Source: Lachnospiraceae bacterium (GTDB lineage: Bacteria > Bacillota > Clostridia > Lachnospirales > Lachnospiraceae). Taken from it: 45,276 bases of DNA. The stretch spans positions 1 to 45,276 of the forward strand of contig JAILEM010000016.1 in NCBI GenBank assembly GCA_024687745.1, given 5' to 3'. The notes under the pieces are model-generated. The model was not told the DNA's origin, ran no database searches, and saw only the letters and a list, made by a program, of their open reading frames with translations. Below, in pieces: positions 880 to 26,239 of this stretch. The number at the start of each line of letters is the position of its first letter. Position 1 is the first letter of the stretch. A program made the position numbers and the translations under genes.

Positions 880-1311
880 ATGGCAAATTCATTACTACCT
901 CAAAGGCTCAAAGAGCTACGCAAAGTTAACAATTATACTCAGGATTATGTAGCAGAAGTATTAGGGACGACAAGACAAACCTATTCGCATTATGAAACCG
1001 GTAGACGTAAGCCATCCCCAGAGACAATATATAAACTTGCTCTACTTTATAATGTCTCCGCCGATGACCTCCTCCACCTATCCATTGAATTTGACGAAAA
1101 AGTCTTCTATGAAGCTCCAGGTCCCTCTCAAAGCAGCGATGATCTGGCAGCATACCTCGAATACTTCAACAATCCAAAGAACCAGAAGAAGTATCAATAC
1201 CATACAAACCTTGAGAAAGAGCTTCTATACTACTTCCAAAAGATAACTGATAAAGATAAGCGAGAATTGATAGAAATCGCCAAAATCAAGTATAAAAGCA
1301 AGAGCCAGTAA
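880..1311 (+). CDS. XRE-family (Cro/C1) transcriptional regulator
   Basis: A 143-residue DNA-binding protein. Residues 6-65 form a complete helix-turn-helix of the XRE/HTH_3 family (RLKELRKVNNYTQDYVAEVL, then TRQTYSHYETGRRKPS and the usual LALLYNVSADDLL). The remaining 75 residues are charged and helical, of no recognised domain, and may mediate dimerisation. I chose the ATG at 880 because AAGGCGGTG lies at 866-874; an in-frame ATG at 838 lacks a ribosome site. It is the only plus-strand gene here, divergent from flagellin and convergent with the recombinase, sharing a terminator with the latter. Direct repeats 60-110 bp upstream are possible operators. Whether it controls flagellin, itself or the mobile island is unknown. 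Confidence 0.88.
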   Translation: MANSLLPQRLKELRKVNNYTQDYVAEVLGTTRQTYSHYETGRRKPSPETIYKLALLYNVSADDLLHLSIEFDEKVFYEAPGPSQSSDDLAAYLEYFNNPKNQKKYQYHTNLEKELLYYFQKITDKDKRELIEIAKIKYKSKSQ

Positions 1312-1352
1312 AACATCAGCATGGATGTTACTGGCTCTTATCGTCTTTTTCC
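1300..1352. terminator. Bidirectional terminator between XRE regulator and recombinase
   Basis: AAGAGCCAGT (1300-1309) pairs with ACTGGCTCTT (1330-1339), extended by AACATC/GATGTT inside. T-rich tails follow in both directions (TCGTCTTTTT on plus, GCTTTTAT on minus). The stop codon of the regulator lies inside the stem. The position between convergent genes supports use by both. Confidence 0.85.
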
Positions 1353-1358
1353 TCATTG

Positions 1359-1988
1359 TTATGCCTTAACTCTCTCAACACAACGGTAGTAGGTACTTTT
1401 ACTGATTCCAAGCTGCTTCATCAGTTCAGTAGGACGGATCTGTCCGTCAATAACCTTCTGATAATGGATCTTGAAATCTTCAATATCAATAGCAGATGGT
1501 CTGCCGTAATCATCCCAGTCTCCTCTTGCTTTCTTTGCTTCGATACCCTCACGCTGACGTTTCTCTTTCTTCTCGATCTCTGCCTGAGCCATAGCAGCAT
1601 AAAGCTCGATCAGCATATTATTGACGGTTTCCATTAGCATCTGAGCCATGGTATTGTCTAACTTGGATATATCCATAAGTGTTGTTGGTAGCTCCAATAT
1701 TTTGACTCTGATATTATGTTCACGAAAATACTGTAACTCACTAAGAGTCTCCTTTTTATTTCTGCCAAGGCGGTCAACCTCTGTGATGATCAGCTCGTCT
1801 CCAGACCGTAAGACATCCTCTTTAAGGACTTGGTATCTGGGACGGTTGAAATTCTTACCAGTCTGCTGATCGGTATATATCCTCTCTAGCTCCAACTGAT
1901 TCTGTTCGCAGTAAGCTGTGATCTCAGCGATACCTCGATCCAGATGCTGCTCCCTCGTGCTTGTTCTGTGATAACCATAACGTTTCAT
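1359..1988 (-). CDS. Serine recombinase (resolvase/invertase family)
   Basis: A 209-residue small serine recombinase. The N-terminal catalytic domain (1 to about 140) starts MKRYGYHRTSTREQ with the nucleophile Ser10. It continues with DQQTGKNFNRPRY and the family signature EVDRLGRNKKE, which carries conserved arginines. A long E-helix with KKEKRQREGIEAKK follows, then a C-terminal Hin-like helix-turn-helix ending GISKSTYYRCVERVKA. The length suits a resolvase/invertase rather than a large serine integrase. ATG 1988 is preceded by AAAGGAG (1998-2004); the in-frame extension to 2036 has no ribosome site. A 31-codon ORF with an embedded terminator lies directly upstream. The gene sits between a regulator and a restriction island, which suggests mobility, but no res or crossover sites were identified. 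Confidence 0.92.
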   Translation of the reverse strand: MKRYGYHRTSTREQHLDRGIAEITAYCEQNQLELERIYTDQQTGKNFNRPRYQVLKEDVLRSGDELIITEVDRLGRNKKETLSELQYFREHNIRVKILELPTTLMDISKLDNTMAQMLMETVNNMLIELYAAMAQAEIEKKEKRQREGIEAKKARGDWDDYGRPSAIDIEDFKIHYQKVIDGQIRPTELMKQLGISKSTYYRCVERVKA

Positions 1989-2014
1989 AAAAATGTTCTC
2001 CTTTCTGTGAGTTC

Positions 2015-2110
2015 CTAAATGTGTACATTTCGGCACAACAAAAAAAGGACTATAAAATAGTCCCTAAAACTATGGACAAACCCTTTCGGGACGTCCCACT
2101 TGATGTGCAT
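2015..2110 (-). CDS. Candidate leader peptide upstream of the recombinase
   Basis: A 31-codon ORF, MHIKWDVPKGFVH then SFRDYFIVLLLLCRNVHI, preceded by AAAGGAGGTGG with 11-13 nt to the ATG. It ends 27 nt before the recombinase start, just upstream of that gene's ribosome site. An intrinsic terminator (2040-2063) lies inside codons 16-24. A ribosome translating these codons would mask the hairpin, which is the layout of a translation-dependent attenuator. I do not recognise the peptide. It may be a regulatory leader, a small hydrophobic protein or a chance ORF. The arrangement is seen; the function is inference. Confidence 0.4.
   Translation of the reverse strand: MHIKWDVPKGFVHSFRDYFIVLFLLCRNVHI
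2040..2063 (-). terminator. Intrinsic terminator in the recombinase leader
   Basis: On the minus strand GGACTAT-TTT-ATAGTCC is followed by seven T residues. This is a compact rho-independent terminator 52 nt upstream of the recombinase start and inside the 31-codon leader ORF. It could also back up the AIPR-gene terminator at 2145-2194. Confidence 0.75.
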
Positions 2111-2144
2111 ACTTTTCGGTACCACCTCCTTTGTTTCGTATGCT

Positions 2145-2194
2145 CAATAACATAAATAAAAGCCCAGGCAGTAGCTCTCACTACCGCTTGGGCT
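2145..2194 (-). terminator. Terminator of the defence operon
   Basis: Minus-strand stem AGCCCAAGCGGTAG / CTACTGCCTGGGCT (2181-2194 with 2161-2174) has a 6-nt loop, one mismatch and one G-U pair, and is followed by TTTATTTATGTT. It lies 25 bp after the AIPR stop codon. Confidence 0.85.
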
Positions 2195-2218
2195 CTTATG
2201 GATATTATTGAACCACAA

Positions 2219-4150
2219 TCAATGCTTGAAGTTCTTAATATACTCCTTATATTTGTTTTCAAGACTCATATCTATCTGCAAACGTTCTTCGATTTTGTCA
2301 AGAAATACACCTGTACTCTTTTTGTCGCGTACCCATGTATTCAAGTTCGGCGTTGATGCAGTAACATCTTTAATACTCTCTATAGTTCCAACAAGGAATA
2401 AATCTCTAAATCCCTCTATCAGTTGATTCTGAAAGATCTTATCTGAATAAAAATCTTCATATCTGTAGTGTAAATTTTTATCAGCATTGGGAAAATCTTC
2501 TTTATATCCGTAATAATATGCTACACAATAGAACACACAGATATTTGCAATAGCTTTAAGTTTTTCGTAACTAGCTATACTACTCTCATACTTTGATTTC
2601 TTGCTTTCATCGCATTTTTCTATTTGTTCTTGAGCTTCATTAATCCTTTTCTTATACTCCGCAATAAGGTTTTTCTTGCTCATTTTATACAAATAATGAA
2701 CGAAAAGCAGTTCATTGATTTCTTCTTTTGACTTTTTAAATAGTATTCCTTGAGATTCATCACCAGAAGCATAATGAAATAATCTATGGTAATACTCGTT
2801 CAGCAGATACCCTTCCGTCTGTTTGTAATCTGTGTCAAAGATTGCATTTTTCTTATCTTTTGCAATAAAAGGATCTCTTAAAAAGCCAGCATAAGCAAGC
2901 TGAGCCATTTCCACATTTGTTGTATACTGATGTTTATAAAGCTTAACATCAGAAGGTGCCTTCATTCCTCTACGTATTTCCATATAGATATTAGGGGCTA
3001 TTCCATCAATTAACCCATGATACAATTGCAATTGTTCTTCTCTGTTGGATGCCATATCACGTGTCGTGATTGGATTCTGAGTATTGTTAAATATTGCAAT
3101 CTGCGATTTGAAATCATCATCGGTGACCTTCAAAATTCTAGCTAGAACATATACCTTTTTAAGTTGGTCAATATCTTCCGTATTATTATCCATCTCAGCT
3201 TCTTTCAAGAAGCGACCTAAGGCACTTGTAGTTTGAGCACCGTTGATAATCGAAAACTCACGCAGTATTACTCTCTCAACAGATCCTTTTTCGTACTTTG
3301 TATCATAATCTTCTGCAATAACCGTAATACCGTTATTATAGAACCAAAATTTTTCTGGTTCTTTACGTATTGTATCGGCCATACCATCATACGTTTTCGA
3401 TTTTGACAATGATTCTCTCAGGTTCTGACCAAATAGTATATTTCTTCCCAAAGAGGTATTTGTATATTTTATCGCCAATCTTGCCAAATCATATCCGCAT
3501 ATGTTCATTAGTATTGCAGGATTATCTTGTGATTCTTCGTAAACGATAAAATTATTGAAACTATCTGCTCCAAATGTTTCTACAGGAACTCTTGGTAATG
3601 TACTTCTTTCACCATCTCTTATAATCTCTAGTTCCGTTCCTGTGATAACTTGTTCAACACCATCTTTTTGCCCTTTAAAGAAATTAATTTCGCCTCTATG
3701 TACTAAAATATAACGACAATTCGATTTGTCTGATCTGCTAAAATCAGTCTCGCTAAGAAGTTCTTTCAGATTATTGTTTATATCGGATGGTTTTTTTAGA
3801 TACTTTTCAACAGTCTTCTCCATATAGCTTAAAGCTTGCTGAATATCAAGTTGAGATAACTCAGCATTCTTAACCTGTATAAAATCATAAGAATTGCCAT
3901 CAATATCTTCCCTTTCGATAACAATATCTATACCATCATCTGGAGGCGGAACAATGAACTTCGAAATCTTACCAACATCTGATGCACTCATTTTTTGCAC
4001 ATCGATTTCTTTTTCTTTTCCATATAGAGTCTCAAGAACAACAATTTCGAATGCATCATTCTTTTGATTCTGCCTTACAATTGGTTTACCATTTGGAAGG
4101 CCAACAAACTTTTCATAATAGTTTTCGATTAAGTCATCTAGTTTAACCAT
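2219..4150 (-). CDS. AIPR-family protein with N-terminal PD-(D/E)XK-like nuclease region
   Basis: A 643-residue protein of the AIPR (abortive infection phage resistance) family. The diagnostic blocks are FWFYNNGITVI (268-278) and IINGAQTTSAL (301-311), followed by the usual AIFNNTQNPI and ASNREEQ regions. Upstream, GIDIVIE (73-79) and DFIQVKNAE (89-97) give an acidic residue at 75 followed by Q92-V93-K94. That is the arrangement of PD-(D/E)XK nucleases of the Mrr/restriction type. The C-terminal third is charged and helical with no recognised domain. ATG 4150 has a GGAGG site. It is the last gene of the restriction operon, 28 bp after a cytosine methyltransferase and followed by a terminator. 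That context suggests an accessory restriction or abortive-infection effector. AIPR membership is clear; nuclease activity is inferred from motifs. Confidence 0.88.
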   Translation of the reverse strand: MVKLDDLIENYYEKFVGLPNGKPIVRQNQKNDAFEIVVLETLYGKEKEIDVQKMSASDVGKISKFIVPPPDDGIDIVIEREDIDGNSYDFIQVKNAELSQLDIQQALSYMEKTVEKYLKKPSDINNNLKELLSETDFSRSDKSNCRYILVHRGEINFFKGQKDGVEQVITGTELEIIRDGERSTLPRVPVETFGADSFNNFIVYEESQDNPAILMNICGYDLARLAIKYTNTSLGRNILFGQNLRESLSKSKTYDGMADTIRKEPEKFWFYNNGITVIAEDYDTKYEKGSVERVILREFSIINGAQTTSALGRFLKEAEMDNNTEDIDQLKKVYVLARILKVTDDDFKSQIAIFNNTQNPITTRDMASNREEQLQLYHGLIDGIAPNIYMEIRRGMKAPSDVKLYKHQYTTNVEMAQLAYAGFLRDPFIAKDKKNAIFDTDYKQTEGYLLNEYYHRLFHYASGDESQGILFKKSKEEINELLFVHYLYKMSKKNLIAEYKKRINEAQEQIEKCDESKKSKYESSIASYEKLKAIANICVFYCVAYYYGYKEDFPNADKNLHYRYEDFYSDKIFQNQLIEGFRDLFLVGTIESIKDVTASTPNLNTWVRDKKSTGVFLDKIEERLQIDMSLENKYKEYIKNFKH

Positions 4151-4178
4151 TATCGTATCCTCCTCGTATTTATTATCT

Positions 4179-5369
4179 TCAAGAAATTGACTCCAAATAT
4201 TCTTTTATGCTTTCACCCATAGCTTTTGCCAATAGGGGCGGAACTGCATTACCAACTTGAACATATGTCTCTTGTTGATTACCTACAAATTCAAATTCAT
4301 CTGGGAACGACTGTATTCTAGCTGCTTCTCTAACCGACAGTGTACGGTTCTCCGTCGGATGAATATACATATATCCATCCATACCTATATGAGCAATCAC
4401 AGTCCAAGATGGTTGATCAGCAACTAGTCGTTTCAGTCTATCCTTAAAAATATCTTCTCTAAATGGCAATATTTGTCGGATCTCGGGTGGCAAATCCATG
4501 TATTTACTTCCCTGAGCCATATGTGGAAATACTTTTTTTGCTCTTTCATTCGACATTCTGCATATATTGTTTTTTACCGTTTTTTTAGGATTGTTCTGAC
4601 GCATAAGTTTTTGGTACTCAGATAGCCTTTTAAACTTTGAGTACTCAACCTCAGAAACTCGCCAATTATCTGTTATAGTAGGTAAATCCGCTATTGCATC
4701 TCCCATGGTTACACAGGGTTTAAGTTTTTTCGACTCTTCATCTTCCTGGTCATAATAATGTGTGGGTCTGGGATAACAGAACGAGGCATTAGTTTTTTTG
4801 TGAGCAACAAGCAGCATTCTTCTTCTCGTCTGCGGAACACCATAATAAACCGCATTCAATACTTGAACTGGTTTCTCAACAACATATATTCCTTCCCCGT
4901 TTCCTTCGTCATCCTTACCTATATTTTCAATAATTTGAACGGCAGTATTAAAAATCTTACCTTTATACTTCGTAATAAATGTCGGAACATTCTCTATTAC
5001 AAAAATTTCTGGTCTAAAGAAATCGACATACTTTAAGTATTCTAAAAAGAGCTGATTTCTAGGGTCCTCCGATGTTGGCTTTCCTGTAACTGAACGTATT
5101 TTGGCATCTCCAATTGTCGAAAATGTAGGACATGGCGGTCCTCCAATAATAACATCTACATGGTCTTTTCCTATAATTTCAGCAAATTTCTCTGGGGGTA
5201 TATTTCTAATATCTCCAGAGATCGTTTTTGAAGATTTATGGTTAAGAGCATGTGTTTTCGCTATTACTTCTTCTAGTTCAATTCCGCCTATACATGTAAA
5301 ACCTGCTTGTTCAAGGCCACACGAAAAGCCTCCTGCTCCACAAAACAAATCTATAAACTCGTATTTCAT
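4179..5369 (-). CDS. DNA (cytosine-5) methyltransferase, island copy 1
   Basis: A 396-residue m5C methyltransferase using S-adenosylmethionine. The ordered family motifs are all visible: I FCGAGG (9-14), IV GGPPCPTFS with catalytic Cys80, VI ENV (126-128), VIII QTRRR (180-184) and X VGNAVPP (372-378). Length is normal for a type II enzyme. The variable target-recognition region between VIII and X lies at roughly 200-340. Its sequence differs clearly from the second methyltransferase in the operon. The start overlaps the McrC-like gene's stop by 4 bp, so translation is probably coupled. It likely protects one strand or half of an asymmetric site from the neighbouring restriction subunits. The target sequence cannot be read from the gene. 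Confidence 0.95.
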   Translation of the reverse strand: MKYEFIDLFCGAGGFSCGLEQAGFTCIGGIELEEVIAKTHALNHKSSKTISGDIRNIPPEKFAEIIGKDHVDVIIGGPPCPTFSTIGDAKIRSVTGKPTSEDPRNQLFLEYLKYVDFFRPEIFVIENVPTFITKYKGKIFNTAVQIIENIGKDDEGNGEGIYVVEKPVQVLNAVYYGVPQTRRRMLLVAHKKTNASFCYPRPTHYYDQEDEESKKLKPCVTMGDAIADLPTITDNWRVSEVEYSKFKRLSEYQKLMRQNNPKKTVKNNICRMSNERAKKVFPHMAQGSKYMDLPPEIRQILPFREDIFKDRLKRLVADQPSWTVIAHIGMDGYMYIHPTENRTLSVREAARIQSFPDEFEFVGNQQETYVQVGNAVPPLLAKAMGESIKEYLESIS

Positions 5370-6832
5370 TTTTTGCTACCCTTCATCATTTCTTCACCCT
5401 TTAATGCATATGCAATAAGGCGTTTTATCTCTCTCTTTTGCTGCTCCTCTTTTTCACCAAAATGAAATTCGGAATACACTCTTTCAGCTCCAGATGCATT
5501 ACCTTCTTGAAGTATCAGACTATCTCCTTGGTCTTCCTCTTCTTCATTCGGTTTATTTCCATCCATCGGGAACACAAAACCACACCGTCTAACATTAAGC
5601 AGTAAAGCATAGAATAAGAGCTGGTGTGAATTATGTCTTCTAGCCTCTGTACCGACTTTCTCCGTGCTTTTTTGATATTTAACATCCATTACTGCTACAT
5701 ATTTCCAAGAAGCATCATTGTCCTTTTTCTCTGGTGTTAAGTTTATTTGAAATGCAATATCTGGAATATAATTCTTCATCAAATATGCACTGTCATTATC
5801 TATCGTGTATAATGCATCCTCACTATTTTTATTACTTCTATAAGCATCTAATCGTACTTTATTTCGTAGATTTTCCTCTTTCAAGAATTTCTTTATTCGT
5901 GTTCTTGTATAAAACTCAAACAAAGACTCCATCTTTATAGCATACGGAATCACATATCCACTCTTGGATCCATCACTATTGATGCTCATATTTGAGTGTG
6001 ATAACAGCATCTCTGCTAGATTAATCGCTGGTGAATATGCCGCATTAAACCCCTTAACATCTACGATTGTAAAATCAGACTTTTTAACCACAATATCGCC
6101 TATATTCTTTAGTCTATTATGGCAGTACGAACTCATAGATCTGATATTGTCTACACCTTCTGCCTCCATACATTTATTAATTCTAAGAATCCGATCACTA
6201 ATCTCCAATGCCTTTTTAAGTATCTGATTCTCCAGAATATTTTCTGAAAATGCTGGATACTTACAGAAAATCTGATCCTCTCGACCTCTTGCAATATTCC
6301 TTTTCACTTGATTTGTGAAATCTATTCGTCCACGGATTTTTCCCTTCAAATTCGCTGACATAAATGACATTTTTCTTTTTAGGTTTGTGGAGCATATTTT
6401 ATAGCAACACCTAATAAAAGATATCGCTAATAGAACTTCTCCTCCCGAATCATCTATGCTTAATTTTATTGGTGTTTCCGCATCTAGTATTGTATAAAGA
6501 GTTCTTTCTGACCCTTGAATATAGTCTTCATACTCTTCGTCACTCATTATCTCAGTAAGCATCTGCCATGGAGATAGAATCCTAAAGCGAGGTTTCACGT
6601 GCAATATGATTTTCTTTCCATCAGGGCCAATATAGTCTTGTCCGTCTTTTCCCTGTAAAACGCATACTCCAACATAACCACTAGACCGATATTGGTTTCG
6701 ATTATCAAGGTATATACCGAGATTATCGCTATCCACGCTATCAACGTTCTTGTAGCAGAATATTTTTTCACTATACTTTAGATTTTTAATTGAACTCCAA
6801 TCATCAACCGTGATTATTGTCGCATTATTCAT
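5366..6832 (-). CDS. McrC-like PD-(D/E)XK endonuclease subunit
   Basis: A 488-residue protein of the McrC family, which forms the nuclease subunit that docks on an McrB hexamer. The N-terminal half shows the McrC-type block GKIRGRID (164-171). MESLFEFYTR (301-310) precedes the catalytic core. The core has PDI at 357-359 and D383-V-K385 in VMDVKYQKST, matching the PD-(D/E)XK pattern. The gene overlaps the McrB-like gene by 8 bp and the downstream methyltransferase by 4 bp, so the proteins are almost certainly made together. In Lactococcus LlaJI the equivalent is R2.LlaJI, and in Bacillus BsuMI it is a McrC-like subunit. Because methyltransferases accompany it, cleavage is more likely blocked by methylation than triggered by it. 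Confidence 0.92.
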   Translation of the reverse strand: MNNATIITVDDWSSIKNLKYSEKIFCYKNVDSVDSDNLGIYLDNRNQYRSSGYVGVCVLQGKDGQDYIGPDGKKIILHVKPRFRILSPWQMLTEIMSDEEYEDYIQGSERTLYTILDAETPIKLSIDDSGGEVLLAISFIRCCYKICSTNLKRKMSFMSANLKGKIRGRIDFTNQVKRNIARGREDQIFCKYPAFSENILENQILKKALEISDRILRINKCMEAEGVDNIRSMSSYCHNRLKNIGDIVVKKSDFTIVDVKGFNAAYSPAINLAEMLLSHSNMSINSDGSKSGYVIPYAIKMESLFEFYTRTRIKKFLKEENLRNKVRLDAYRSNKNSEDALYTIDNDSAYLMKNYIPDIAFQINLTPEKKDNDASWKYVAVMDVKYQKSTEKVGTEARRHNSHQLLFYALLLNVRRCGFVFPMDGNKPNEEEEDQGDSLILQEGNASGAERVYSEFHFGEKEEQQKREIKRLIAYALKGEEMMKGSKK

Positions 6833-9581
6833 CTATACCATCTTCCTTCTCGTCAAGTCCAATAAATTGTTGAATTCCTGTCTTAATAGTAGGTGATGTC
6901 TTTATCATTTCAAGCAGCTCATTATAATTTGCGTCCCTATCATCGTCCTTAGATAAAACTAAATCGCGAACCTCTTCTAATGCATCCTTCAACGACGGAT
7001 CCTCTACTGTATTAATCCTGTCAAAATCAAGTATTCCATCCTTCTTGTATTCATATAATATAGGCAACACTTGATATATAAATCTATATTTCATCTGATC
7101 TTCTGCTGGTATTGATGTTTTATGACGAAGAAAATATGTGTGACCTAGCTGAACATCATCCATATCATAATCAACTTCATTTAAGCATTCATCAAATAGC
7201 GTCTTAATCATGTAAAATAATACAACCTCATCACACTCGAGAGGATCTACGTCACTGTCTATCTTTTTTATTGAATCAATAACTACATTTATATCTGGAA
7301 GAAGCTTAAAGAATAAAAATCTCCTTCTAATCGCATAATCAATCGTTCCTATCGATTTATCAGCCGTATTCATGGTTCCTATGATAAACATATTTCTAGG
7401 AATAATAAGCTCTGAGTTTCCGTCAACCTTATAAGGAGTATTTATCTCTTTGTCTCTGTACTCCAATGCAAATATCAATTCGCCAAATACTGTTGCTAAA
7501 TTTGCACGGTTTATTTCATCTATTACCAAGAAGAATTTAGGACAACCATCTATATCTCCATTCTCAACAGCTTTTTGATAGTATGCATTTGCTAATTTAG
7601 CCATTTTTCCAATAGCTTTATTAACACTCTTGTATCCTATTGAATCCTTTTCAACAAGCGTTATCTCCTTACCGTCAACAGTCCCTTTGATTTCATTGTT
7701 TTCTTTAGTATATACTGTTATTCCCCTTACGAAGTCTTCATAAGTATAGGACGGATGAAACTGCACAATGTCCCAATATACTTTCTCATCATCTTGGGGA
7801 ACATCATACTCATCTTCGTTTGCGATAGATGTCTTTAGCTGGTATTCCTTTAGTTTATCTTCCCAAGCATCGCCTTCAATGCTGGCCTCTTTAGCCAAGA
7901 ACTTCTTAGCACCGTATGTTTTTGATGTTCCTGGAGGGCCCTGTAATATCATCTGACGGACATCTGTAGCATTCATAATATGCATATAATCTGTACTCAT
8001 TTTTCTATACACTCCTTCTTCATTTAACATCATTTGCCATGTTGGTAATGATCTAATCAATCCTACTAGCTTTATACAATCCTGAACATCATTAGCACTG
8101 ATATAATATGGCTCTGCACTGTATTTTTTTTCTGTTGTAATCTGACTAACAAATTCTATGTCTTCAGTCACTTGTACTAGTTTACTTCGTATAACAGGGT
8201 TTTCATCATTCAACAAGTAGTTTTCAAGATTGCTCTTATATTTTTTTAAATACTTATACACAAGCATCTTGACTGTTTTAAACAGATTTCGATTTTGTGA
8301 TCCCGTTCCCGTTTCAATGCAACTACTCAGTTTATATGGACAACTGTCATTTGATGCATATTTCGAAAACATCCGATATCTTTCACCTTTATACTTAAAC
8401 AGATGAAATGTATCACTATACGGTGATAATGTTGCGTTTACTTTGTCTTTTACTGGAAACAAGGACCTTTCATCTTCTTTTACAAATAATCGTCCACCCA
8501 ACCTACCATTTGGTGCTGCAATATCATTCCTAAATGTGAGAATCTGTTCATCACTGATAAACATATCAAACAGATCCATCTGATTAATCAAGGAGTGGGC
8601 TATCATTTCTTGTACCAAAAATGAAATGGTTACATATCGGGGATTGGCTTGTAAACCGCCCTTTCTCTCAACTCCATACGGCAACGGCAACCCATTAACA
8701 AAGGTATCCTCTTCCTGCTTTGCATAGTAGGGTACTTTATCTATCTGAATATTCTCTTCCTTAATGTGATTAATAACAAATTTCGTGTCATTGATTTCTT
8801 CGTCTGGTATATATTCTTTCTTTATAACACCATCAGCTGCATACTGTTCTAGCAGTGGTCTTACTTGATGGCGAATCTTATTCTGAATACAGTCTCCCCA
8901 GAACACTACTGGAACATGGTTACTCGGCAAGAAATAACCATATCCTATTTCAAAATCTCTCCGATCCTTTGCATATTCTTTCGTAAATACGCAAAACTCA
9001 TTTTTATATCTTTCATATTCTCTTCTTAACTGTTCGACTAAGTCCCCGAACTCCAATGAACTTAATGTACAGTTGTATTCATCTTTTAAGTCTCTTAAGA
9101 CAAGCACATATCTGTTCGAGTCATTATCAATATGTCTAATTTCATCAAATAAACCTTCAATATTGTTATTAACCGAATGCATATCTGATGTACACATCGT
9201 AGCAATCAAAGAAACATTATTTGGAACTATTATGCGTCTACCACTTTTGAGCGTTATTTCCGTATTCTTATTTTGGAAAGCAAAAAACAACTCTCCTAAA
9301 ACAGACGATAAATCTACACGATTGATGTCGTCTAAGATTACGCAGTAGTCCTTGTCCTCTTCTATTTTTTCTATAAAACTAAGCAGTACTTGTGGCTTTT
9401 GAATATACTGAGCGGAATTAAGTTCCGTCTCAATCTGGATCCCTTCAACCAAATTTTCATATGTTACATTCTCATTCATATGAATAAACAACATATGGTA
9501 ATCTTTGGCCATTTTTCTGGCAATATATGTTTTTCCGCATCCAGCTGGGCCCACAAGCAAAATATTCTTACTTGTCATCAT
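6825..9581 (-). CDS. McrB-like NTPase with two AAA+ modules
   Basis: A 918-residue motor subunit with two McrB-type AAA+ modules. Module 1 (about 1-250) has Walker A GPAGCGKT (11-18), Walker B VILDDINR (81-88) and sensor-like LIATMCTSD, but no IRRRF-type arginine block. Module 2 (about 540-800) is complete: GPPGTSKT (548-555), QFHPSYTYEDFV (607-618), VIDEINR (686-692), GTMNTADKS (735-743) and IRRRF (751-755). The 300-residue linker between them matches nothing I recognise and may be the DNA-recognition part. Classical McrB has one AAA module after an N-terminal DNA-binding domain, so this duplication is unusual. It overlaps the methyltransferase upstream by 14 bp and the McrC-like gene by 8 bp. 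McrB relatives hydrolyse GTP; the nucleotide used here is not known. Confidence 0.93.
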   Translation of the reverse strand: MMTSKNILLVGPAGCGKTYIARKMAKDYHMLFIHMNENVTYENLVEGIQIETELNSAQYIQKPQVLLSFIEKIEEDKDYCVILDDINRVDLSSVLGELFFAFQNKNTEITLKSGRRIIVPNNVSLIATMCTSDMHSVNNNIEGLFDEIRHIDNDSNRYVLVLRDLKDEYNCTLSSLEFGDLVEQLRREYERYKNEFCVFTKEYAKDRRDFEIGYGYFLPSNHVPVVFWGDCIQNKIRHQVRPLLEQYAADGVIKKEYIPDEEINDTKFVINHIKEENIQIDKVPYYAKQEEDTFVNGLPLPYGVERKGGLQANPRYVTISFLVQEMIAHSLINQMDLFDMFISDEQILTFRNDIAAPNGRLGGRLFVKEDERSLFPVKDKVNATLSPYSDTFHLFKYKGERYRMFSKYASNDSCPYKLSSCIETGTGSQNRNLFKTVKMLVYKYLKKYKSNLENYLLNDENPVIRSKLVQVTEDIEFVSQITTEKKYSAEPYYISANDVQDCIKLVGLIRSLPTWQMMLNEEGVYRKMSTDYMHIMNATDVRQMILQGPPGTSKTYGAKKFLAKEASIEGDAWEDKLKEYQLKTSIANEDEYDVPQDDEKVYWDIVQFHPSYTYEDFVRGITVYTKENNEIKGTVDGKEITLVEKDSIGYKSVNKAIGKMAKLANAYYQKAVENGDIDGCPKFFLVIDEINRANLATVFGELIFALEYRDKEINTPYKVDGNSELIIPRNMFIIGTMNTADKSIGTIDYAIRRRFLFFKLLPDINVVIDSIKKIDSDVDPLECDEVVLFYMIKTLFDECLNEVDYDMDDVQLGHTYFLRHKTSIPAEDQMKYRFIYQVLPILYEYKKDGILDFDRINTVEDPSLKDALEEVRDLVLSKDDDRDANYNELLEMIKTSPTIKTGIQQFIGLDEKEDGIDE

Positions 9582-10800
9582 TTTGGTTTTTCTCTTTTTT
9601 CTCGATTATGTTCAAATATGATCTGATAGTTTCTGCAAACGCTTGTGCCATAAGTGGAGGAACAGCATTTCCAACCTGTTTATATTGGTCGGTTCGAGAT
9701 CCTTCAAACACAAAATCATCAGGAAACGATTGTATTCTTGCTGCTTCACGAACCGTAAATGTTCTTGCTTGTGTACAATCTGGATGAATAAAAAGGTTTC
9801 CGTCCTTATACAAATGAGCTACGACCGTTCTTCCTGGCTTATCATATTCTTGTACTGTGTATCTATTACCAAAATGCTTAGGATCATGATGAATTAAATC
9901 GGGACGAACTTCTTGCAAATCCTTTAGCTGCCAATTTTGATGTTCACTTAGTATCCTATACCTTTCGCGATCTGTATCATTATGAATTCTAGCTTGGTGA
10001 TTGTATACTACATCATCTTTATTCCTTACTTTCTCAAGAAAGGCATTGTTTATATCATAATTAATTCCATGCTGTACCTCATCGCCCTGTCCTGGTTCTA
10101 ATCTTGGCAAATCAGTTATAGCTTGTCTTACGGTAACATAATCGGGCAAGCTATCATCAGTTTCTGAATGCGTAGGTTTTAATGATTTATATATTTCAAG
10201 CGGATCCAAGTCACTAATATCATTTCTTACGCCAATTAGAATTACTCTCTCTCTTATTTGAGGTACACCGTAGTCTGCTGCATTTAATGTTATAATCTCT
10301 GGAATATCTACAACCTTATACGTCTTCCTCATTTCTGAGATGACCTTCGGGAAAATTCTAACCCCATTAGGATGTGCAGAAAGAATTCCTTTAACATTTT
10401 CAAAGATAAACATCTTTGGCTTTATGTGGTTAAGAATAAGTAAATAGTTCTCAAACAGATAGTTTCTGGGATCATTATTCATACTATCTGGAGATTGTGC
10501 CCTTCCTACACTTGAATATGCTTGGCATGGAGGGCCACCTATGATAATATCAACCTCTTGTTTAACACGCTGATCAATTACTTTTAAAACATCATCGTCA
10601 GTAATATCCTTGCATAATACCGCTCGTTCGATATCTTTATCAGAATACTTATAATATTTCATTCTAGTACAAAGAGTCTTACAAGCCGTCGGATCGATTT
10701 CGAGGTGCAATAAGGCCTTATATCCATTCTTATAAAAGCCTTCGCTTAGTCCCCCGCATCCCGCAAACAAATCCACAAATGTATATTTTTTTTGTGACAT
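9568..10800 (-). CDS. DNA (cytosine-5) methyltransferase, island copy 2
   Basis: A 410-residue m5C methyltransferase with motif I FAGCGG (12-17), motif IV GGPPCQAYS with catalytic Cys92, ENV (134-136), QIRER (181-185) and VGNAVPP (376-382). It is the first enzyme gene of the operon, 9 bp after the small regulator and overlapping the McrB-like gene by 14 bp. Translating a methyltransferase before the nuclease subunits suits safe establishment in a new host. It differs throughout from the other island methyltransferase (FAGCGG versus FCGAGG, PCQAYS versus PCPTFS), so the two are not a recent duplication. They probably modify different strands or different targets. Confidence 0.95.
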   Translation of the reverse strand: MSQKKYTFVDLFAGCGGLSEGFYKNGYKALLHLEIDPTACKTLCTRMKYYKYSDKDIERAVLCKDITDDDVLKVIDQRVKQEVDIIIGGPPCQAYSSVGRAQSPDSMNNDPRNYLFENYLLILNHIKPKMFIFENVKGILSAHPNGVRIFPKVISEMRKTYKVVDIPEIITLNAADYGVPQIRERVILIGVRNDISDLDPLEIYKSLKPTHSETDDSLPDYVTVRQAITDLPRLEPGQGDEVQHGINYDINNAFLEKVRNKDDVVYNHQARIHNDTDRERYRILSEHQNWQLKDLQEVRPDLIHHDPKHFGNRYTVQEYDKPGRTVVAHLYKDGNLFIHPDCTQARTFTVREAARIQSFPDDFVFEGSRTDQYKQVGNAVPPLMAQAFAETIRSYLNIIEKKEKNQNDDK

Positions 10801-10809
10801 AACAAGCTC

Positions 10810-11010
10810 CTATTCCCATTTGAACTCTGCAACATCTCCAATATCACAGTTAAGCTCTTTACATATTTTTTCCAAGACCTCTATGGATACAATCTCATTT
10901 TTACCCATTTTTGCCATGGTACTGCTGCTTATACCTGTTTTGTTACAAAGTTCTGTTTTGTTGATTCCTTTGTCTATTAGCTTATGCCATAATTTGTCGT
11001 ATACTATCAT
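10810..11010 (-). CDS. Small Cro/C1-type HTH regulator, probable controller of the island
   Basis: A 66-residue single-domain helix-turn-helix protein. LIDKGINKTELCNKTGISSS is a Cro/C1-type HTH, followed by TMAKMGKNEIVSIEVLEKIC, and LNCDIGDVAEF is the usual end of the domain. Such short regulators often precede restriction-modification genes and act as controller proteins. It is the first gene of the operon, transcribed from the strong promoter at 11050-11078. Three CCAGTT repeats lie over and upstream of the -35, so autoregulation is likely. The start at 11010 is preceded by AGGAAAAAGAG. HTH identity is firm; the role is inferred from context. Confidence 0.88.
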   Translation of the reverse strand: MIVYDKLWHKLIDKGINKTELCNKTGISSSTMAKMGKNEIVSIEVLEKICKELNCDIGDVAEFKWE

Positions 11011-11049: not shown

Positions 11050-11078
11050 ATTATATCACAAGTTATTTTCCAGTTCAA
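11050..11078 (-). promoter_or_regulatory. Sigma-A promoter of the defence operon
   Basis: TTGAAC (11073-11078), a 17-bp spacer and a perfect TATAAT (11050-11055), with TG one base before the -10 (extended -10). It is followed after about 40 nt by the regulator start codon. It is one of the best promoters in the window. Confidence 0.85.
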
Positions 11079-24884: not shown

Positions 24885-26072
24885 TTAAAGATACTTCTTT
24901 AATGCATCTACCTTGTCAAGTGCTTCCCAGGGAAGATTTAAGTCATTACGTCCGAAATGTCCGTAAGCTGCCGTCTGCTTGTAAATAGGACGGCGAAGGT
25001 CAAGCATCTTTATGATACCTGCAGGACGAAGGTCAAAGTTCTCTCTGATGATCTCAACTATCTTTTCATCTGAAAGCTTTCCTGTTCCAAAGGTATCAAC
25101 CATGATAGATGTAGGCTGTGCAACACCGATAGCATATGAGAGCTGTATCTCACACTTATCTGCTATACCTGCTGCCACAATGTTCTTTGCAACATATCTT
25201 GCTGCGTATGCGGCAGAACGGTCAACCTTGGTGCAGTCCTTTCCGGAAAAAGCTCCGCCGCCGTGACGGGCATATCCGCCATAGGTATCAACTATTATCT
25301 TACGTCCTGTCAGTCCTGCATCTCCGTGAGGTCCGCCTATTACAAAACGTCCGGTAGGATTGATAAAGAACTTTGTATCCTTGTCGATAAGCTCCTTTGG
25401 AAGAATGGGATCAAATACATACTTCTTTATATCCTCATGTATCTGCTCCTGGGTCACATCATCATCATGCTGTGTGGATAATACGACCGCCTCTAATCTT
25501 ACGGGCTTTCCATTCTCATCATACTCAACCGAAACCTGGCTCTTCCCGTCAGGTCTTAAATATTTAAGGGTTCCGTCCTTACGTACATCTGTCAGCCTCT
25601 TTGCAAGCTTATGGGCAAGTGAGATGGAATAAGGCATATATTCCTCTGTCTCATTTGTTGCATAACCAAACATCATACCCTGGTCACCTGCACCTATTGC
25701 CTCTATCTCTTCATCTGACATTTTGTTCTCTTTTGCCTCAAGAGCCTTATCGACTCCCATTGCTATATCGCTTGACTGCTCGTCAATTGCAACAAATACT
25801 GCACAGGTATTTCCGTCGAAACCATATTCCGACTTTGTGTAACCTATCTCTTTTACGGTATCTCTTACTATCTTCTGAAAATCTACAAATGCGTTTGTGG
25901 TTATCTCACCTGTGATAAGCACAAATCCCGTACATGTAGCTGTCTCGCAGGCTACACGGCTGTTGGGATCCTGTTCCATGCAGGCATCAAGCACTGCATC
26001 TGAAATGGCATCGCATACCTTGTCGGGATGTCCTTCAGTAACCGATTCTGATGTGAATAAATATTTTTCCAT
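24885..26072 (-). CDS. metK: S-adenosylmethionine synthetase
   Basis: A 395-residue MetK that makes S-adenosylmethionine from methionine and ATP. It starts [20 protein letters not shown], the ATP/methionine-site signature. [12 protein letters not shown] and the P-loop-like [20 protein letters not shown] follow, with [19 protein letters not shown] near the metal site. ATG 26072 is preceded by AAGGAGG. The frame extends to 26138 but runs through the riboswitch terminator, so the longer start is rejected. Expression is controlled by the SAM-I riboswitch directly upstream, a product-feedback arrangement. Confidence 0.98.
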
Positions 26073-26090
26073 CTGCAATTCCTCCTTAAA

Positions 26091-26115
26091 ATAAAAAATC
26101 CGCTTTATAGCGGAT
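26091..26115 (-). terminator. Riboswitch expression-platform terminator
   Basis: AGCGGAT / ATCCGCT 7-bp inverted repeat (26109-26115 and 26098-26104) with a 4-nt loop, followed by six T residues on the minus strand. It ends about 10 nt before the metK ribosome site. Confidence 0.88.
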
Positions 26116-26239
26116 AAGATTAAAAATCTGATAATCAAATCCCCTTATTGTTCGAACTGTCTCGCTCAGGTTGGCACCTTCCTTCCGGGGTTGCCGTGGC
26201 TTCTCAGATCCTATGTATCTCCACCACTCTGAATAAGAG
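26091..26239 (-). promoter_or_regulatory. SAM-I (S-box) riboswitch upstream of metK
   Basis: On the minus strand the aptamer starts CTCTTATTC at 26239 and closes with GAACAATAAG (ending 26144), which form P1. Between them are the conserved AGAGTGGTGGAGA, the AAGCCACGGCAACC block of P2/P3 and AAGGTGCCAACCTG. A GAGCGAGACAGTTCG stretch forms P4. A terminator (26091-26115) follows as the expression platform, then the metK ribosome site. Binding of SAM is expected to favour termination. The aptamer is read from sequence; switching is established for this class. Confidence 0.93.

Follow-up and report, generated by a model that had tools for sequence, protein, structure and literature searches.

How can a McrBC machinery stand in one operon with two enzymes that methylate cytosine? 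This question is raised by the window analysed here, i.e. the whole stretch of 45,276 nucleotides of contig JAILEM010000016.1 from a Lachnospiraceae bacterium. Between positions 11010 and 2219 of its minus strand six open reading frames (ORFs) encode a helix-turn-helix (HTH) protein, a first 5-methylcytosine (m5C) DNA methyltransferase (MTase M1), McrB, McrC, a second m5C enzyme (M2) and an AIPR protein. Two m5C enzymes overlapping McrBC make little sense where McrBC cuts m5C DNA, and for this reason we consider the operon not as a type IV system but as one that probably encodes a modification-blocked (type II-like), GTP-driven restriction–modification (RM) system. McrBC proteins together with MTases are already known from LlaJI, LlaI, BsuMI and several groups of a published census, and the window is a rare structural variant among them: its McrB protein contains two AAA domains, an architecture that was missed in the first-pass annotation of this DNA.

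The operon and its products

Listed in the order of transcription, the features are:

11050..11078, minus strand: sigma-70-like promoter TTGAAC-17-TATAAT, ahead of the operon (10/12 match)
10810..11010, minus strand: Cro/C1-type HTH protein, 66 aa, probable controller protein (HTH_26 PF13443, 70.6 bits)
9568..10800, minus strand: m5C DNA methyltransferase M1, 410 aa (DNA_methylase PF00145, 215.8 bits; six motifs)
6825..9581, minus strand: double-AAA McrB, 918 aa (AAA_5, 86 bits, two AAA_5 stretches; motifs)
5366..6832, minus strand: McrC-like PD-(D/E)XK nuclease, 488 aa (McrBC PF10117, 71.7 bits; motif residues)
4179..5369, minus strand: m5C DNA methyltransferase M2, 396 aa (DNA_methylase PF00145, 223.2 bits; six motifs)
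2219..4150, minus strand: AIPR protein, 643 aa, probably accessory (PF10592, 119.8 bits)
2045..2065, minus strand: terminator-like hairpin with T tail, after the AIPR gene (terminator scan)

The genes are tightly packed. A gap of 9 bp separates the HTH and M1 genes, M1 and McrB overlap by 14 bp, McrB and McrC by 8 bp and McrC and M2 by 4 bp, and 28 bp lie between M2 and AIPR. The ORF list thus confirms the six minus-strand genes with their overlaps and gaps as the first-pass annotation had described them, and the product names given there hold as well, since each of the six products lies above its Pfam cut-off. None of the six ORFs contains a frame break. Both MTases show the m5C motifs I, IV (PPC), VI (ENV), VIII, IX and X. 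In McrC the residues P357, D358, D383 and K385 (PD...DVK) are invariant in all five rows of the McrC alignment (A5); a sequence search of the PDB returned a single match for this protein with an E-value of 0.86.

A McrB protein with two AAA domains

The McrB protein is composed of AAA1 (residues ~1–255), a linker (~270–525) and AAA2 (~540–860). AAA2 carries the Walker A variant GPPGTSKT followed by DEINR, MNTADKS and YAIRRRF, and it aligns to the solved McrB structures of Thermococcus gammatolerans and Escherichia coli (best PDB matches 6ut5, 6ut3 and 6hz4). AAA1 shows Walker A (GPAGCGKT) at position 11 and DDINR at 84 and has neither NxxD nor an RRRF finger. It starts at the start codon, and because the whole open frame comprises 926 aa only, no N-terminal domain has been overlooked.

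Searches from the C-terminal AAA (A3) and from McrC (A5) led to five further loci of this kind, namely the viral contigs L014, L015 and L018, G739 (L095) and G596 (L096). A sixth one is present in the Ruminococcus phage NatCom_38182 (L012). The string GPPGTSKT is identical in all six whole double-AAA proteins as well as in the piece from phage L012, and AAA2 of the six whole proteins has Walker B, NxxD and the finger throughout. Across the seven loci AAA1 has always kept Walker A (7/7), has always replaced the Walker B glutamate by aspartate (7/7) and has always lost NxxD (7/7), with the RRR of the finger helix being retained in L018, L095 and L096 and partially in L015. In McrB of T. gammatolerans (TgMcrB) both asparagine and aspartate of NxxD are reported to be required for turnover, and the two arginines of the finger to act in trans, over the interface between subunits (PMC7680126). 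With Walker A kept, NxxD and finger gone and this precedent at hand, AAA1 of the window protein should bind nucleotide, with hydrolysis probably being poor or absent.

Among the three segments, the linker shows the lowest conservation in every one of the 21 locus pairs, lying 1 to 13 points below AAA1 (a single point in the pair L014–L012). Such low conservation would fit a specificity region, and our guess is that the linker represents the site-reading domain.

Relatives and their methyltransferase pairs

In all seven double-AAA loci McrC and two DNA MTase genes are found beside McrB. The pair consists of two m5C enzymes in the window, L012, L014 and L015 (where the first one lies at the contig end) and of one m5C and one Eco57I/N6-type enzyme in L018, L095 and L096. 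The other six loci have both MTases together upstream of McrB; the window differs from them in having M2 after McrC. MTases were scored by BLAST with eight queries over 6 kb on each side of McrB, with shorter flanks in some cases. Among 50 other McrB loci at least two MTases were detected in 4, one in 6 and none in 40, a contrast (7/7 versus 4/50) that the choice of queries favours, as seven of the eight stem from double-AAA loci, and that refers to a selection of loci from which short survey loci as well as L105 and L108 were excluded and in which L087 and L089 are duplicates.

According to all searches double-AAA McrB systems appear to be rare. No record among 72,556 plasmids covers 80% of the McrB from the window, L018 or L014, and McrC has no plasmid match. 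Viral scans with the window McrB and with A2 yielded no confirmed relative; the A3 scan gave 44 loci including L014, L015 and L018, and scans with A4, A5, A8 and A9 revealed no further double-AAA locus. The contig scan of genomes detected only L013, in whose McrB a second AAA was not seen. In the McrB survey of 195 relatives 10 others beyond the own genome were found, none with a visible second AAA, and the survey with AAA1 plus linker in 391 genomes of the class gave 17 others that all match only within residues 2–136. The McrC profile retrieved two others, both double-AAA, from 397 genomes of the family (E 1e-15). It retrieved four others without double-AAA architecture (one split pair and three weak ones) from 398 genomes of the phylum (E 1e-12), two weak and again not double-AAA ones from 391 genomes of the class (E 1e-12), and none from 181 genomes of the order (E 1e-30); the genome draws of these ranks overlap and their E limits differ.

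The HTH protein has BLAST matches near McrB in three of the six other double-AAA loci, i.e. in L144 (the L014 contig, 50% identity), in L143 (the L018 contig, 50%) and in L095, and also near McrB in L034 (56%) and L055 (44%), which are not of the double-AAA type. In L012 a different HTH protein occupies that place, in L015 the contig ends there, and in L096 no HTH match was found.

Two of the viral loci deserve a separate remark. The phage L012 (3597-6359) has its double-AAA McrB gene broken up into two ORFs that share one frame; its two MTase ORFs appear complete, and a fragment at the end of the record that is labelled 'similar to DNA methyltransferase' appears by eye RNA methyltransferase-like. 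The viral contig L016 (3852-10787) contains an m5C MTase match, a HpaII-type restriction endonuclease (REase), McrB and McrC in a row, preceded by an ORF of 141 aa which we take, by eye, to be Vsr-like.

Comparison with known systems and a possible mechanism

The closest described likeness is found in LlaJI from the Lactococcus plasmid pNP40, in LlaI and in BsuMI, which share with the window two MTases, a McrB-like GTPase and a McrC-like protein with PD...D/ExK, all encoded side by side. As described in PMC1459862, the asymmetric site GACGC/GCGTC of LlaJI is served by two m5C MTases, its McrB-like subunit R1 binds the site, its McrC-like subunit R2 has the PD...D/ExK motif and both subunits are required in vivo; in vitro the authors could not demonstrate cleavage. 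R1.LlaJI (585 aa) consists of an N-terminal DNA-binding half and a single C-terminal GTPase domain, and in LlaI and BsuMI the McrB-like subunits, encoded in three-ORF cassettes, comprise 337 and 343 aa, respectively (PMC1459862). The window contains the two MTases, a GTPase with Walker A (in its variant form), Walker B and NxxD in AAA2, and the PD...D/ExK motif in McrC. In contrast with the published description of LlaJI, its McrB has two AAA domains and an internal linker instead of an N-terminal DNA-binding domain with a single GTPase, M2 follows McrC, and AIPR is added. By its domain make-up this McrB stands apart from ordinary members of the LlaJI type. The first-pass proposal of a LlaJI/BsuMI-like McrBC blocked by its own MTases hence stands as far as gene content is concerned, both in the 7/7 versus 4/50 comparison and in the LlaJI organisation (PMC1459862), but McrB departs in its domains from the R1 described for LlaJI.

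Type IV McrBC of E. coli and T. gammatolerans shares with the window DEINR, NxxD and the RR finger helix of AAA2 and the nuclease motif of McrC. It differs in that the window has two MTases, GPPGTSKT, a degenerate extra AAA and no N-terminal base-reading domain. The CoCoNuT systems are defined by an NxD GTPase signature, and MNTAD in AAA2 corresponds to NxxD instead. A McrBC census of nearly 34,000 proteins describes NxxD, NxD and NxxxD GTPases as being associated with DNA methyltransferases and leaves much of this for a later paper (PMC11090510); its main text does not contain 'AIPR', 'LlaJI' or 'two GTPase', and the passages of it considered here describe no double-AAA McrB. Nor was one met among the papers listed by the literature searches, whose scope leaves out supplements and most subscription journals.

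From these comparisons the following mechanism can be suggested. The HTH protein would time expression, and M1 and M2 would mark the host DNA, each of them most likely acting on one strand of an asymmetric site; the m5C plus N6-type pairs of L018, L095 and L096 also fit one enzyme per strand. The double-AAA McrB, with AAA2 probably hydrolysing and AAA1 probably not, would form a ring or a stacked ring and recognise the unmethylated site, probably via the divergent linker that separates AAA1 from AAA2. McrB would then move the DNA and McrC would cut it.

Several observations weigh against this interpretation. The P-loop of AAA2 has serine in place of the consensus glycine, which makes the activity of AAA2 uncertain. 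By pairwise identity the seven loci belong to no more than three lineages, so that 7/7 amounts to about three independent cases, and the locus L103 with its split McrB and no MTase match implies that this McrB branch can exist without an MTase. Linker identities near 25% make the linker comparison rough, the linker of the window McrB matches no Pfam family, and its sequence matches in the PDB are weak (best E 0.13, a coiled coil). An AlphaFold2 model of the double-AAA McrB (4 rows) had a mean predicted local distance difference test score (pLDDT) of 40.7 and was too poor for use. Concerning the P-loop, AAA proteins of the MoxR type accept a small residue at this Walker A position, and the variant in AAA2 need not imply inactivity.

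Origin and arrangement of the two AAA domains

A tree of 34 AAA domains places the six AAA1 sequences in one group (97/92) and the six AAA2 sequences in another one (98/94). L012 with its McrB in two ORFs was omitted, and the rows L006 and L035 were dropped as being without a motif match; the window AAA1 sits on a long branch (2.18) and its position is less sure. The two groups point to one fusion before the split of the three lineages, and it is likely that one old fusion created the double-AAA McrB. A single clade of AAA1 plus AAA2, imposed as constraint, was not rejected (p-AU of 0.106 in the approximately unbiased test), and thus the tree does not decide between a duplication and the joining of two lineages. 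Both McrB proteins of L103 (G1014, same phylum) place next to the AAA2 group. This locus (L103:9270-15897) has adjacent separate McrB genes for 550 and 593 aa, McrC, a WYL-domain regulator and no MTase match, and a heteromeric ring of its McrB pair is possible.

A more far-reaching idea, which we put forward tentatively and with more doubt than confidence, is that one fusion of a catalytic with a nucleotide-locked AAA gave rise to a distinct McrB subfamily. Its members would be pre-wired motors, either alternating pseudo-hexamers of three chains or stacked rings, with the site-reading domain held between the AAA domains. For the window protein the stacked form is favoured, since AAA1 has neither RR finger nor NxxD and an alternating ring would leave AAA2 without a finger in trans; a homotypic AAA2 ring on a static AAA1 ring is our simpler guess. 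The AAA1 domains of L018, L095 and L096, having kept RRR, give no support to this arrangement, and the pre-wired motor as such is weakened by the off-consensus Walker A of AAA2.

Such proteins would be instructive in three respects. McrC has been described to stimulate only a single active site of the asymmetric McrB hexamer at any one time (PMC7680126), and with a naturally occurring McrB that brings along its own degenerate partner domain one could ask how far the motor depends on this asymmetry; for Cdc48, a two-domain AAA protein, the reason for having two domains was described as unclear (PMC5039278). The double-AAA McrB could also show where McrB can carry its site-reading domain. Finally, the sub-branch of L018, L095 and L096 would extend McrBC-type restriction to pairs of an m5C and an N6-type MTase.

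The AIPR protein

The last gene of the operon matches PF10592 with 119.8 bits over residues 240–578 (curated threshold 25 bits). At the N-terminus of its product a GID-x15-IQVK motif is found that is kept in L109 and appears as GID...QNK in L058 (Enterococcus faecalis plasmid), where the automatic alignment had put it one place off. By its residues this looks like the motif of a PD-(D/E)XK/Mrr-type nuclease. For the AbiU1/AIPR family an N-terminal HEPN RNase domain has been predicted (PMC3506569), in contrast with the GID-x15-IQVK N-terminus of the window protein. The sole match to the HEPN pattern Rx4-6H is RYILVH at residue 146, which is absent from L109, and L058 has none. Sequence search of the PDB gave no match for AIPR, and the AlphaFold2 model (2 rows, mean pLDDT 34.2) was too poor for use.

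The first-pass annotation had regarded AIPR as a possible third arm of the system. That AIPR belongs to a conserved set was not borne out: over 6 kb on either side of McrB an AIPR match is missing from all six other double-AAA loci, although in L018 the absence is local because only ~1.6 kb of contig lie beyond McrC, and the six-gene order was not met elsewhere. The closest AIPR relative detected is encoded in L109 (48–50% identity over the whole length). In this viral contig (L109:6351-10950) it adjoins an m5C MTase and a NgoPII-type REase. In Nocardioides lijunqiniae (L013:6475-13614) McrB, McrC, AIPR and a gene with a caspase domain stand in a row with no MTase match.

On account of the missing matches in the six other loci and of the nearest relative beside a NgoPII-type RM system, AIPR looks accessory. 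We prefer to regard it as an exchangeable addition, probably a nuclease-like arm for abortive infection. We consider it unlikely that AIPR is instead a full member working only with these genes, as the second nuclease of the restriction complex or as a dedicated abortive-infection fallback. This alternative can refer to the 28-bp gap, which by spacing means the same transcription unit, to the terminator-like site after AIPR, to the N-terminal GID...QxK that is present also in L109 and L058, and to the row of genes in Nocardioides. Against it stand the score of 0/6 in the other double-AAA loci, the simple type II RM system beside the relative in L109 and the description of AIPR as common in numerous RM operons, in print by 2008 (PMC2292703). 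The same link with RM operons is made in PMC3506569 and PMC5608340.

Alternative roles of the methyltransferases

Could the operon after all encode a type IV McrBC that attacks modified phage DNA, with MTases that belong elsewhere or mark sites invisible to McrBC? McrC and the majority of the AAA2 motifs agree with type IV McrBC, 40 of the 50 other McrB loci have no MTase match within 6 kb (flanks being short in some), and the split McrB of L103 has none either. But type IV enzymes work without a cognate MTase, whereas here, as judged by gene content alone, the MTase genes overlap those of McrB (14 bp) and McrC (4 bp), and two MTases accompany all seven double-AAA loci. Moreover, besides McrBC only AIPR could be the nuclease in this operon that is served by the MTases. 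We regard the type IV role as quite improbable.

That the two MTases serve different activities, one of them McrBC and the other AIPR as a type II-like nuclease, is suggested by the position of M2, which adjoins AIPR apart from M1, and by the single m5C MTase next to the AIPR relative of L109. This division of labour is very unlikely, since the partner REase in L109 is NgoPII-like and not AIPR, and double-AAA loci with no AIPR match still possess two MTases. The preferred role of M1 and M2 is protection of the host DNA from the modification-blocked McrBC, as we infer from the gene content.

Expression signals and genomic setting

The first-pass annotation placed the operon behind one strong promoter. 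The 10/12 site at 11078-11050 agrees with this, but an equally good match (10/12) lies at 11191-11164, 113 bases upstream of the first, and a single strong promoter is thus likely at most. The promoter scan gave 6 sites versus 2.3 in shuffles, the terminator scan of 1300-4300 gave 3 hairpins versus 1.2 expected.

With a GC content of 35.1% in 2219-11010 versus 42.2% in 11292-45276 the operon looks acquired. It sits past the end of lysS, a gene 75–93% identical in the listed congeners (29 of 37 genomes matched, the own one included). The acquired-looking GC and the draft state of the genome (256 contigs) might suggest a silent or decayed island or a misassembled contig, which is hardly credible in view of six intact ORFs with intact checked motifs and of a lysS that assigns the contig to its host. 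In the host genome (95% complete) one McrC-family match and four m5C MTase loci were found, two of the latter in this operon, which speaks for the modification-blocked reading.

None of seven stretches from congeners presented a clean empty site downstream of lysS. Five of these contigs stop less than 250 bases from lysS (one of them inside it), that of L141 stops ~1.7 kb past it, and L137 continues with other genes, by eye a WYL-like regulator and a DUF262-like gene. The insertion site may be variable among congeners.

On the other side, between the operon and a flagellin gene truncated at the start of the window, genes for a serine recombinase and for a Cro-type HTH protein are found (838-2036). 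A weakly similar recombinase (26%) is found near the MTases of L096. Further inside the window (24885-26239) an S-adenosylmethionine (SAM) riboswitch immediately precedes the gene of S-adenosylmethionine synthetase, which is an ordinary arrangement.

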